DNA of 64,000 bases from Bacteriovoracales bacterium (GTDB lineage: Bacteria; Bdellovibrionota; Bacteriovoracia; Bacteriovoracales; Bacteriovoracaceae): assembly GCA_030149295.1 (NCBI GenBank), contig JASBRV010000082.1:1-64000 (forward strand), given 5' to 3'. How positions within the stretch are numbered: the first letter of the stretch is position 1; each line of letters begins with the position of its first letter. A model generated the notes under the pieces. It did not search any database, was not told where the DNA came from, and saw only the letters and a program-made list of their open reading frames with translations. Of this stretch, positions 11,816-36,422 are shown in pieces. The translations under genes were made by a program, and so were the position numbers.

Positions 11816-12409
11816 TTATGCCCTATAGCCCTTTCCGATAGCAAAGAATTCTTTTGAAACTGACCTTGTAGATTTGGGTTTTAATTTATGAAATTCTTGA
11901 AAAACCTTTTGATTTTCCTTTAAGAATTGTTGTGCCTGATTCGAATCAAATACTTTAATGACAAAGTTACCACCGGGTTTAAGAAAGTCGGGGAGCACTC
12001 TAAAGACCTCCTCCACCAGATTTAAACTTCGGTCTTGATCAACAGAGCGAATACCTGTTGTATTTGGTGCCATATCAGAAATAACCACATCAAAAAGCTT
12101 ATCCACGGAAAGATCTTCTAATACGCTGACATCAAATATCGATTTTTCAAAAAGGTGAACATTTTTTAAGTTGGTTAATTTTACATTTACAGGCTTGATA
12201 TCAATACCAACGACCTTTCCCTGTTCTCCAACTTTCTTAGAGGTGTACTGAACCCAAGACCCCGGGTGATAACCCAGATCAACAACATGATCATTCCTTT
12301 TTATGATTTTATATTTCTGGTCTATCTCATCAAGTTTATAGACGCTCCTGGCCAAAAACTTTTCTTTCTTTGCCTTCTTGAAATAGTGGTCTTTGACCTT
12401 AAAGCTCAT
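11816..12409 (-). CDS. rlmE: 23S rRNA 2'-O-methyltransferase RlmE (FtsJ/RrmJ)
   Basis: A 197-residue methyltransferase with the full K-D-K-E tetrad of the family: Lys25 (ARSVYKL), Asp112 (SDMAPN), Lys152 (VIKVF) and Glu187 (SKEFFAIG). The SAM-binding loop is DLGYHPGSW rather than the common DLGAAPGGW. The family methylates the ribose of U2552 (E. coli numbering) late in 50S assembly. Length is close to E. coli RlmE. It is first in a minus-strand run with the transpeptidase and lepB genes, and its promoter should lie in the 407-bp gene-free stretch upstream. Confidence 0.93.
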   Translation of the reverse strand: MSFKVKDHYFKKAKKEKFLARSVYKLDEIDQKYKIIKRNDHVVDLGYHPGSWVQYTSKKVGEQGKVVGIDIKPVNVKLTNLKNVHLFEKSIFDVSVLEDLSVDKLFDVVISDMAPNTTGIRSVDQDRSLNLVEEVFRVLPDFLKPGGNFVIKVFDSNQAQQFLKENQKVFQEFHKLKPKSTRSVSKEFFAIGKGYRA

Positions 12410-12816
12410 AAATCTGCTCTCAGTATATATATTGATGAATTCTTCAAAAGTATAACATTTGTATCAGTTCTAGTTTCTTACATTTTAAGCCGCGTCATTG
12501 GCCATCCGAAAAAGAAAAATAACTAATCTTTTCTTGATAAAAGTTCTTTTTATACTTGACTCGTGTTTTTTATCCCCAAAATCTTTTAAGTTTTCCACAT
12601 TTTATAAATATCATTTACAACTTTTTCAAGCTCAATAAAAAGCAGAAATTTTGGGTGATTTTAGTAGGTTAGACCTAGTGAGAGAGGCAATGTGCCAATT
12701 TCGTTTTTGCATCTGATCAATTATCAACAAAAAATTCGGAGTTATTCACAATCTAATCGGATTTGAATAATGGAATAGAAAAACAGGGGTCAATATGCAA
12801 CCAAAGGCCTTTTATC
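12410..12816. other. 407-bp gene-free stretch with DnaA-box-like words
   Basis: I see no convincing gene here. The stretch is AT-rich and holds TTTTCCACA (12591-12599) and TTATTCACA (12742-12750), both matching the relaxed DnaA-box pattern TTWTNCACA. Near matches are TTATCCCCA (12570-12578) and TTATCAACA (12721-12729). All four are on the plus strand. The region should also contain the rlmE promoter. No DnaA gene or other origin-associated gene is in the window, so this is a description and not an origin call. Confidence 0.4.
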
Positions 12817-14472: not shown

Positions 14473-14543
14473 CAGCTCCAATTTAACGTCTATTTTTGAT
14501 ATATTAGTCAGGTAAAGGTGTGCTTTCATACACCACTGCTGCC

Positions 14544-14560
14544 AGGAGGGCACGAGCTTG
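14544..14560 (+). promoter_or_regulatory. ribosome binding site fixing a TTG start for fliD
   Basis: AGGAGGG (14544-14550) lies 7 bases before TTG (14558-14560). The reading GISFGSINTGL after the TTG matches the usual FliD N-terminus, so the TTG is the start. Confidence 0.8.
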
Positions 14561-15949
14561 GGTATTTCATTCGGTTCCATTAACACCGGCTTACCTAAAG
14601 ATATTGTAAAGCAAATCATGAATGCCGAACGCATTCCATTAAAGAAAATGGAAGATCGCAAAGGAAAGATTGCTGACAAGAAAAAATTGGTAGGCGAGCT
14701 GCAAAGACTCATGAATGACATGAAGTCTAAAATCTTGGCAAATGGAAACGCGCGCTCACTAAAAGAATTAAAAGTCGATACCAATAGCGAACTCGTTGAT
14801 GTCACAGTTGATAAAAATATAGCTAATGCTTCTAATTACCAATTCGAAGTCGTTAACCTCGCACAAAAGACGTCAGCACTTTCTGTTGGCGTTGCTGATA
14901 AAGATGAGACTTACACGGGTGTTGGCTATATCCAATACTTTCTCCCTGACGGAGAATCACGAGAAATTTATGTCGACAGTGAAAATGCCACCCTTAGTGG
15001 CATTGCAAAACTTATTAATAAAGATTCCGCAAATGGAATGCACGCTACCGTTGTTAATGATGGTTCAGATACAGAGGAACCCTGGAGACTTATCATTAGT
15101 CTTGACGACACCGGTGATGGAAAAAGAGCTGAGTTTCCCTACTTCTATTTTGTGGATGGTGAAGTTGATCTCTACCTTGAAAAGGAAAGACCCGCCCAAG
15201 ATGCAAAAATTAAAATCGATGGATTTGAAATAGAAGTTCCTGGTAATAAAGTTACTGAAGTTATTCCTGGTGTAACGATAGATTTAAAAAAGGCTAGACC
15301 TGGTGAAGAGTTCTCCTTAAACATTGGAGAAGATAAAGAAGCTGTTTCAGGAAAAATTGGAGATTTTGTTGAAAGTATCAATAATGTCCTCGGCTTTATC
15401 AAGCAGCAAAATAATATGGATGAAAATACTGATACCTCAAGAACTCTTGGGGGAGATATTCTTCTTCAAACACTTGAGGGAAGAATAAGGAGCGCCGTTT
15501 TTAAGGATGTCGAAACAAGCGATGGTTTTAAACGAGTTGGTGATATTGGACTTTCTTTTCAAAGAGACGGTCTTTTAAAACTCGACCAAAAGAAATTTGA
15601 TGCTGCTCTTGCCAACAACTATGGCGTTATTGCAGAGGTCTTAACGGGCTACATTCGTCCCGATGGTACTAAGTCAAAAGGCTTCATTGATAATCTAAGC
15701 GAAATGGCCAATGCAGCCCTAAGATTTCCAAACGGTATTCTTACCAGCAGGACCAAGGGGCTAGACTCCAAGATTGAGCAAATCGATCGGAGAATTTCTC
15801 AAAGAGAGAGAATGCTTGAACAAAAAGAAAGAAACTTAAAAGATAAATTTGCAAGATTAGAAGGAACAATTGCCAAAATCCAGTCACAAGGAGCCGGCAT
15901 ATCGGCACTTGGTGCCGCCCCTGCAAATGCAGTCACACAACTGGGATAA
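14558..15949 (+). CDS. fliD: flagellar filament cap protein FliD (hook-associated protein 2)
   Basis: A 463-residue cap protein that sits at the filament tip and folds exported flagellin. The N-terminal coiled region starts GLPKDIVKQIMNAERIPL, close to the FliD_N pattern. The middle is a variable, acidic beta-rich domain. The C-terminal FliD_C region has the repeating coiled helices (IEQIDRRISQRERMLEQKE) and the usual A-rich tail. It is followed after 22 bases by fliS. Two promoter candidates and a terminator lie upstream. Length matches smaller FliD proteins. Confidence 0.93.
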   Translation: MGISFGSINTGLPKDIVKQIMNAERIPLKKMEDRKGKIADKKKLVGELQRLMNDMKSKILANGNARSLKELKVDTNSELVDVTVDKNIANASNYQFEVVNLAQKTSALSVGVADKDETYTGVGYIQYFLPDGESREIYVDSENATLSGIAKLINKDSANGMHATVVNDGSDTEEPWRLIISLDDTGDGKRAEFPYFYFVDGEVDLYLEKERPAQDAKIKIDGFEIEVPGNKVTEVIPGVTIDLKKARPGEEFSLNIGEDKEAVSGKIGDFVESINNVLGFIKQQNNMDENTDTSRTLGGDILLQTLEGRIRSAVFKDVETSDGFKRVGDIGLSFQRDGLLKLDQKKFDAALANNYGVIAEVLTGYIRPDGTKSKGFIDNLSEMANAALRFPNGILTSRTKGLDSKIEQIDRRISQRERMLEQKERNLKDKFARLEGTIAKIQSQGAGISALGAAPANAVTQLG

Positions 15950-34146: not shown

Positions 34147-34806
34147 ATGATTAAAATTATCGGTGTCGCCGGTGGATCGGGTTCAGGAAAAACAACCTTT
34201 GCCAAGAAGCTTATTAAGCTTGTAGAGACCCCAATTACCCTTTTCCACATGGACAGCTACTATCTACCAGAACAGCCGTCTAAGCACTTCACAAAGTCTG
34301 GTAAGCCTAACTTCGATCATCCAGAAGCTTTTGATTGGGAGTTATTAAGAACACACCTTACTCAATTAAAAAATGGTGAAGATGTTCAATCTCCTGTTTA
34401 CGACTTTAAGACATCCTCAAGAAATGGAGAAACTGAAACCACAAAGGCCACAGGTGTAGTCATTTTTGAGGGTATTTTCACTTTGTTTGATAGTGAAATC
34501 AGAAATCTTCTTAATATTAAATGTTTTCTTCATGTTGATAGTGACATCAGATTTACAAGACGCCTAAACCGCGATGTACAAGAGAGAGGACGAAGTTTAG
34601 AGTCGATTATTGACCAATATTACGAAACAGTGCGGCCAATGCACCAAAAGTTTTTGGAACCACAAAAACAATTTGCAGATTTTGTGGTCGGAGAGGAAAC
34701 TGATGTTGCTGCCGAAATTTTAGCTGCTAAAATTAATAACGACCTAAGCTTAATTTCAACAGAGAGAAAAACCCTATCGGATCTCACCAAAAACCAAACC
34801 ATTTAG
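34147..34806 (+). CDS. udk: uridine kinase
   Basis: A 219-residue kinase with Walker A GGSGSGKT (9-16), MDSYY (lid region), NFDHPEAFDW and RRLNRDVQERGR, the standard uridine/cytidine kinase pattern. It phosphorylates uridine for pyrimidine salvage; such enzymes are useful to a predator living on host nucleotides. AGGAG lies 9 bases before the ATG. The last 20 or so codons are polar and not conserved. They overlap an open -1 frame that leads into the conserved N-terminus of the RNase J gene. Confidence 0.93.
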   Translation: MIKIIGVAGGSGSGKTTFAKKLIKLVETPITLFHMDSYYLPEQPSKHFTKSGKPNFDHPEAFDWELLRTHLTQLKNGEDVQSPVYDFKTSSRNGETETTKATGVVIFEGIFTLFDSEIRNLLNIKCFLHVDSDIRFTRRLNRDVQERGRSLESIIDQYYETVRPMHQKFLEPQKQFADFVVGEETDVAAEILAAKINNDLSLISTERKTLSDLTKNQTI

Positions 34807-34853
34807 AGTTCTCTATTAAGCCACTTGGAGGTCTCGGCCAAATTGGCAGTAAT

Positions 34854-36422
34854 ATGATGGAGGTAACTTACCAAGGTCATACTTTCATTATCGATTGTGG
34901 CATCCTTTTTCCGTATGAAGATACCTTTTCAATAAATTACTTAATCCCAAACTTTCAAGAAATCGAAAAACCACAAAAAGTTTTTATTACTCATGGTCAC
35001 GAAGACCATATTGGCGCTCTACCTCATCTCATAGAAAAGTTTCCAGGTCTCAACATTCAAGCTCCAGCATTTGCTAGTTCACTGATCAGACGAAAATGCG
35101 ACTTCTTTCCAAGATCACTTGAATTTAATCTTAAGTCCTCTACAGAAAGTGATGATTTTTATGGATTAGAGATTCACTATATTCAAGTCAACCATAGTAT
35201 CCCCGATACTTATGGTTTGCTACTTGTCGACAAGAAAAATGATCTCTCTGTTTTTTATATCAGTGACTTTAAGGTCGATCCCAAGGCAAAACTTGAACCT
35301 TATTTTGATTTTTCAAAATTAGAAAATTTAACTCAAAACATAAGCCAGAAATATCTTCTTGCAGATAGCACCAATATCACAAGCTCTAATAAAAAAACCC
35401 CTTCTGAAGAAGACCTTCTCCCATCACTAGAACATCATCTCTCCCGTGACAATAAACGTGTTTTTGTCACAACATTCAGCTCCAATATTCATCGTTTAAA
35501 AAACATCGTTGATTTAAGTCAAAAAAACGGGAGAAAGGTTATTTTTTATGGTCGTTCAATGCAAAACTACTGGCAGACGGCTTATGAGCTTGGCATAGTC
35601 GCTGAGCCCAGCGCATTTTCCGATGTTGAAGATTTCAAGTCCCATCCCGATCATAAGTACACAATATTAGTAAGTGGCTGCCAGGGAGATTTTAGAAGTA
35701 CCTTTAGACGTATTTGCTACGGGCATGACTCTTATTTTAAACCAAATGAAACTGATCTTTTTCTTCTCTCTAGCAAAGCCATCCCTGGTAACGAGAAAAA
35801 AATCACCATGTGCTTGAATGAACTTAGTCGTTATGGCGTTGAGGTCGTTACCGCTAATGATGACCTTATTCATGCTTCAGGCCATCCCGGCAAGGAAGAT
35901 CTTAGGATTGTTTTAGAAAACTACAATCCTTCCAAATATATTCCTATTCATGGTGAAACTTTCTTTTTAGCCAGGCATAAGAAATGGTTAAAAGACGAAT
36001 TTCCTTCTATTCAAAGTCACATTCTCCTTAATCATCAAACCTTCGATTTTATCAAAGAGCAAATACTCTCGCTCGACATTGATGAAGAGTCTACGCAGCC
36101 CTTAATCGTTCATGGTAATGGTCAATTTCTGTCACGGGAAGAGGTAAAAGAAAGAAGGAAAATTGCTGAAGCAGGAAAGGTCATCATTTCCTATTCGGGC
36201 ACAGAGTCAAAGGTTTTACAAATAAAGTCAGAACTTCTTGGAATTCCCCTTGGCGGAGGCTACGATAAAAAGTTCTTTTTTGATCATATCAATAAAGTTG
36301 TGAGAAAAAACTTTAAAGGAAGTAAAACCTCTGAAGAGCAGGTGAGAATTCAATCGAGAAAAGTTTTTAAAGATATCTTAGGTATTAAACCTGTTGTTAC
36401 TGTAATTAGTCACATCCAGTAA
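34854..36422 (+). CDS. rnj: ribonuclease J (metallo-beta-lactamase/beta-CASP), start unresolved
   Basis: Residues 47-52 give H-G-H-E-D-H, the HxHxDH metal site, followed by the beta-CASP region and the C-terminal SSKAIPGNE and HASGHPGKEDL/IPIHGE motifs of RNase J. The enzyme degrades and matures RNA by endo- and 5'-exonuclease action. The first ATG is at 34854, but the in-frame codons just before it read KPLGGLGQIGSN, the conserved first strand of RNase J. No ATG, GTG or TTG lies between there and the stop at 34737. Start at ATT 34815, at ATC 34776, or a -1 shift from udk are possibilities. Coordinates given are for the ATG. Confidence 0.85.
   Translation: MMEVTYQGHTFIIDCGILFPYEDTFSINYLIPNFQEIEKPQKVFITHGHEDHIGALPHLIEKFPGLNIQAPAFASSLIRRKCDFFPRSLEFNLKSSTESDDFYGLEIHYIQVNHSIPDTYGLLLVDKKNDLSVFYISDFKVDPKAKLEPYFDFSKLENLTQNISQKYLLADSTNITSSNKKTPSEEDLLPSLEHHLSRDNKRVFVTTFSSNIHRLKNIVDLSQKNGRKVIFYGRSMQNYWQTAYELGIVAEPSAFSDVEDFKSHPDHKYTILVSGCQGDFRSTFRRICYGHDSYFKPNETDLFLLSSKAIPGNEKKITMCLNELSRYGVEVVTANDDLIHASGHPGKEDLRIVLENYNPSKYIPIHGETFFLARHKKWLKDEFPSIQSHILLNHQTFDFIKEQILSLDIDEESTQPLIVHGNGQFLSREEVKERRKIAEAGKVIISYSGTESKVLQIKSELLGIPLGGGYDKKFFFDHINKVVRKNFKGSKTSEEQVRIQSRKVFKDILGIKPVVTVISHIQ

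Follow-up and report, generated by a model that had tools for sequence, protein, structure and literature searches.

Few non-AUG starts are known to have become fixed in natural bacterial genes. In E. coli, infC and pcnB have AUU starts that are limited by IF3; both are housekeeping or regulatory genes with a conserved non-AUG start, as rnj would be with one of the candidate start codons considered here, and pcnB functions in RNA decay, as rnj does. In Staphylococcus aureus, cvfC1 (AUU) and ccpN and infC (AUA) are described as having non-canonical starts with extended Shine-Dalgarno (SD) sites (PMC13009471). The efficiency of ATT in E. coli was put at about 0.3% of that of ATG (Hecht et al., quoted in PMC10666635), and in a titrated-IF3 assay AUU read by anticodon CAU was reported to give 31.1% of the full-length product, only Watson-Crick pairs being tolerated at the first two start-codon bases (PMC10158994). 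In E. coli, excess IF3 is reported to hold back non-canonical starts as well as re-initiation without an SD, and a recJ mutant with a GUA start and no SD appears to be coupled to an upstream ORF and is helped by altered IF3 (PMC2268962).

A close stop and start without a useful SD is described as the usual sign of termination-reinitiation (PMC10666635; PMC3711429), and a stop-start spacing of -8 to +10 nt has been taken as predictive of it (PMC10666635). In E. coli, coupled initiation at an AUAA junction overlap was reported to fail (PMC9955659). Literature searches on UUA/TTA starts, on RNase J together with Bdellovibrio, and on RNase J together with non-canonical starts brought up no case like the present one among the matches listed.

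The window analyzed here is a 64,000-nucleotide stretch of DNA from a Bacteriovoracales bacterium (genome G000), in which rnj, encoding RNase J, follows udk in the -1 frame (Table 1). The rnj frame is preceded by TAA at 34737-34739 and encodes KPLGGLGQIGSN at 34818-34853, and no ATG, GTG, or TTG occurs among its codons from 34740 to 34853; its first ATG follows directly at 34854. A preliminary description of this DNA had placed the udk end, the open frame, the conserved strand, and the first ATG correctly, and its claims of a -1-type frame relation and of a missing canonical start were both confirmed, the latter recurring in the closest congener, G005.

Table 1. Features of the udk-rnj junction in the window. 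Codons of rnj are numbered from the P of PxGG.
Feature	Position	Strand	Remarks
udk, uridine kinase, gene upstream of rnj	34147-34806	+	219 aa; stop TAG 34804-34806
rnj (RNase J) open frame, stop to stop	34740-36422	+	560 codons plus stop; no ATG/GTG/TTG before 34854
ATC, codon -15, within udk	34776-34778	+	less likely start; weak GAGAG upstream
TTA, codon -6	34803-34805	+	candidate start; ATG here in five other congeners; overlaps udk stop as TTAG
First beta strand FSIKPLG, codons -4 to +2	34809-34829	+	open-frame residues 24-30 in the AlphaFold2 model
ATT, codon -2	34815-34817	+	most likely single start codon (candidate); same in G005; 8 nt past udk stop
PLGGLGQIGSN motif	34821-34853	+	conserved, evidently translated; 8 nt / 0 aa changes vs. 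G005
ATG ATG, first canonical start in G000	34854-34859	+	internal (GSNMM); rejected as start

Profile searches identify both neighbors. The udk product scores 233.9 bits against the uridine kinase family NF004018 (cut-off 180) and 212.2 against TIGR00235, slightly below the cut-off of 220.3, and it matches PF00485. The rnj product exceeds the cut-offs of PF22505 (RNase_J_b_CASP; 112 bits, cut-off 27) and PF07521 (RMMBL; 39.7, cut-off 21.6). Its best NCBIfam match is TIGR00649, which covers positions 3-475 of 546 and scores 301.9 bits, below the cut-off of 400, and by that yardstick it is a divergent member. In an 11-sequence alignment the metal-binding motif HGHEDH (H85-H90) is invariant, as are P28, G30, G31, Q34, I35, G36, S37, and N38 of the open frame. 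Solved RNase J relatives were also matched (best 3bk1, 6.2e-64); the nine best-scoring align from residue 21-26 and more distant ones from residue 10 or 12. Judged from its Pfam domains, motifs, and solved relatives, the protein is an RNase J, though it falls below the NCBIfam cut-off.

The missing canonical start of rnj is real. Within the genus sample of seven genomes (G000-G006), all of which carry rnj, G005 is the closest to G000, the two RNase J proteins sharing 68% identity across 556 residues. Its junction reads the same way: after a stop come 27 open codons, none of them a canonical start, and then PLGGLGQIGSN; a TTG within the motif (codon +4) is the first canonical codon. In the five remaining congeners (G001, G002, G003, G004, and G006) udk and rnj are separate genes, and the ATG of rnj stands at codon -6, on or close to the udk stop, with offsets of 0, 0, -4, -4, and -11 nt (the last in G004). 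In G000 and G005 codon -6 is TTA, which gives the overlaps TTAG and TTAA with the udk stop, respectively, where G001 and G006 have ATGA. The preliminary description had suggested comparing this junction in related genomes, and the comparison bore out the peculiarity of the start.

A wider search, across the family, found an rnj match in 114 of 129 genomes. Nine matched genomes with only partial or weak matches (G079, G090, G105, G108, G112, G130, G131, G142, and G149) were left out of the survey, the short rnj pieces of G090 and G130 nonetheless extending to the N-terminus; removal of duplicates and of L029, which lies outside the family, gave 106 distinct loci, 105 with a complete 5′ end and one (L134) cut by a contig end. 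The nearest start was ATG in 61 of these 105 loci, TTG in 31, and GTG in 11, the TTG count being an upper bound because in five or more loci (L013, L120, L130, L136, and L149 among them) the nearest-start rule prefers a TTG over a farther ATG. The remaining two loci, with no canonical start, are those of G000 and G005, which are more closely related to each other than to any other member of the set; the canonical start was probably lost in their ancestor. Within the family, one part often has weak starts at rnj: in genus g25 (loci L016, L147, L150, L152, L153, L155-L159, L161, L163-L168, L170-L173, L175, and L178) the nearest start is TTG in 19 of 23 loci, GTG in three, and ATG in one.

An internal control of 57 ORF pairs between the window and the syntenic G005 contig also set rnj apart, with 38 (G000) and 31 (G005) aligned residues before its first canonical start. 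Other ORFs with at least 19 such residues in one species or both look, by eye, like antisense or shadow frames; next among the ORFs taken for genes is an FtsJ-like one (11816-12463), with 17 residues and in the window only. The same comparison contains a fliD-like gene (14516-15949; Pfam FliD_N and FliD_C) whose first canonical start is TTG in both G000 and G005.

Several lines of evidence point to translation upstream of 34854, as the preliminary description had supposed. Across the 11 codons of PLGGLGQIGSN, G000 and G005 differ at eight nucleotides and at no amino acid, and random placement of eight changes kept the peptide in 1 of 200,000 trials; the segment is therefore translated. This pattern indicates purifying selection on PLGGLGQIGSN and an intact, selected rnj gene. 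An AlphaFold2 model built from 30 sequences (mean pLDDT 86.6) starts its first strand at residue 24, whereas residues 1-20, with pLDDT below 50, are predicted to be disordered. Further upstream, family genes with a canonical start have a hydrophobic residue at codon -4 in 102 of 103 cases and at codon -2 in 103 of 103, and between G000 and G005 the Phe at -4 and the Ser at -3 are each kept through a synonymous change. If untranslated, both would be kept with a chance of 0.014 at the observed fourfold-site identity of 19/52, and of 0.05-0.2 under milder divergence, so that codons -4 and -3 also appear to be translated.

Non-canonical initiation has a precedent within the lineage. Of nine genomes searched for infC, seven matched (L199, L200, L201, L202, L203, L204, and L205), and in all seven there is no ATG, GTG, or TTG between the last in-frame stop and the conserved N-terminus; among ATG, GTG, TTG, ATT, ATC, ATA, and CTG, ATT is the only start-like codon in each. 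A GGAGG stands just upstream of this ATT in six of the seven loci, and in the three genes examined the SD duplex reaches -10.6 to -10.8 kcal/mol. In the seventh locus, L204, the frame opens with two ATTs side by side. Since ATT is the only possible start of infC, the lineage very probably uses AUU starts. A search for pcnB as a second AUU gene gave weak matches in four of four genomes, none above the cut-off, and hence no clear ortholog. The earlier suggestion that rnj might start at ATT or ATC gains from the infC result.

We favor the view, with a probability of roughly 0.6, that translation of rnj is coupled to termination of udk and starts at a non-AUG codon, AUU or UUA. Ribosomes finishing udk at its UAG (UAA in G005) would re-initiate within a few nucleotides, without a useful SD site, and the outcome would be a low-level synthesis of RNase J that is probably IF3-sensitive. 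The offsets of the five other congeners, together with SD duplexes at their rnj ATG that are weak in four (0.7 to -2.2; the fifth, L008, reaches -5.1 with bulged pairing), suggest that the coupling is ancestral; G000 and G005 would have kept it while initiating on a non-AUG codon. Four of these five congeners fall within the -8 to +10 nt spacing and G004 (-11) lies outside, whereas UUA (-4) and AUU (+8) are both within. RNase E/G is present in seven of seven genomes tested, and for that reason a low RNase J output may be tolerable. In its spacing, weak ribosome binding site, and co-directional arrangement the udk/rnj pair resembles termination-reinitiation pairs with ATGA or TAATG overlaps, but it has no start codon, TTAG or TTAA taking the place of ATGA. 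Compared with recJ, where the GUA start is a laboratory mutation, the state of rnj is natural and common to two species. While the S. aureus genes and the infC of this lineage have extended or strong SD sites, rnj lacks one at both AUU and UUA and lies at an upstream stop codon; such a site is typical of the reported AUU and AUA genes, not strictly definitional. The sequence otherwise shows the features of a gene without a canonical start, shared with a relative, and of a closely spaced gene pair.

Which codon would serve is a separate matter. AUU at 34815 is our first choice, held tentatively and at somewhat less than even odds, because the infC of the lineage has only AUU and on biochemical grounds. 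The ATT is identical in G000 and G005, where only four of 12 nearby Ile codons are; its SD duplex is -2.4 in G000 and +0.4 in G005, and starting there would drop codons -4 and -3, with which the first strand begins. UUA at 34803, the second choice and a rather unlikely one, would be a natural UUA start codon: the ancestral AUGA overlap would have changed, perhaps via UUGA, to UUAA or UUAG, with ribosomes at the udk stop re-initiating on UUA itself. It exactly replaces the AUG of the congeners and keeps the first strand intact, but its SD duplexes are unfavorable (+2.0 in G000 and +2.2 in G005), and it has a two-base mismatch to the initiator tRNA. UUG and GUG are used as starts in cells. Position, the apparent translation of codon -4, and the modeled strand fit UUA better than AUU; conservation and structure thus speak for UUA or for a start farther upstream. 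One such earlier start would be de novo initiation at AUC 34776, with a 14-residue flexible tail before PLGG. This codon and the GGATCTCAC that follows are identical in the two genomes, the whole first strand is retained, accessibility is moderate (0.55 and 0.60), and tails as long are known in the family, where the nearest canonical starts lie up to -20 from GG (ATC 34776 at -17). Its SD duplexes of -3.6 (G000) and -5.1 (G005) are within the range for window genes, the first ATGs of 41 ORFs longer than 200 aa having quartiles of -6.5, -3.3, and -1.5. All these energies were computed against an assumed canonical anti-SD; a 16S search for the true one found none in four of four genomes, while 9 of 14 control genomes matched. 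Energies as good as those of the AUC occur at 23% (G000) and 10% (G005) of udk positions, however, the ATC falls out of udk Leu-Ser codons, the -1 frame in that stretch shows no extra conservation (10/20 against a mean of 9.0, sd 1.9), and the other five congeners begin at -6. Residues 1-20 are moreover predicted to be disordered, although this is compatible with a tail. On balance a start at AUC is improbable, and more so than one at UUA.

Still less probable is the fusion of Udk to RNase J by a -1 ribosomal slip near the udk end, the model put forward in the preliminary description. Programmed -1 frameshift genes such as dnaX and those of IS elements do have overlapping -1 frames, as udk/rnj has, and a fusion would contain the whole first strand. 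The P-site lysine tRNA could slip at udk codons 207-208 (AGA AAA in G000, AGA AAG in G005), where the close congeners G001, G002, and G003 have Gln or Glu; a slip there would be weak at best. Of the 31 open -1-frame runs in the udk of G005, the one of 22 codons before the stop is the longest (the next has 17), but in G000 a run of 22 codons is ordinary beside others of 20, 21, 22, and 29. Neither genome has an X XXY YYZ slippery heptamer in the possible stretch, only partial matches. The 10/20 conservation just given is that of the last 20 udk codons set against udk windows, a comparison of one species pair with low power, and can be explained by udk coding alone, so that a dual-coding signal of the kind expected for a frameshift gene is missing as well. 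The whole-junction fold does not clearly stand out (z = -0.04 in G000 and -1.48 in G005 against mononucleotide shuffles), the -1 offset is simply that of the ATGA overlap in G001 and G006, and Udk and RNase J are encoded separately in five congeners. With two tested marks of programmed frameshifting lacking from the sequence, the fusion is poorly supported. A shorter RNase J starting at ATG 34854 is very unlikely; this is the first canonical start of the G000 frame and the ATG ATG is kept in G005, but there it is preceded by the TTG in the motif, its SD is weak (-2.1 and -3.3), and a start at residue 39 would delete the modeled strand and leave the invariant residues and synonymous changes of PLGGLGQIGSN upstream. 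Both the pattern of synonymous changes and the modeled structure led us to reject it. An assembly error or a pseudogene is the least probable of all. The assemblies are drafts (140 contigs, completeness 100, and contamination 5.01 for G000; about 60 contigs for G005), yet the same state is found at the same codon in two species with diverged RNase J, the 560-codon frame is full length with conserved active-site motifs, and each genome has a single strong RNase J match. Sequencing error was rejected because G005 shows the same start-less junction.

Termination-coupled initiation at a non-AUG codon, if it is what happens here, would place RNase J under an IF3-sensitive restraint like that of infC, in bacteria whose genomes encode RNase E/G as well. 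The persistence of a start-less gene at a stop codon in two species would suggest that ribosomes coupled to termination can initiate at sites almost closed to free ones. If genes are annotated from their first canonical start, RNase J is cut back to 34854, and similar cases may therefore hide in other overlapping gene pairs.

Two further observations concern RNase J in the family. G113 carries two complete loci for RNase J with comparable scores, G113:C7 (L147) and G113:C39 (L155), for which 5% contamination may account. The RNase J frames of L030 (G031) and L198 (G098) are 636 and 639 codons long, and their profile match is broken after about position 100, which suggests an insertion in the metallo-beta-lactamase domain.
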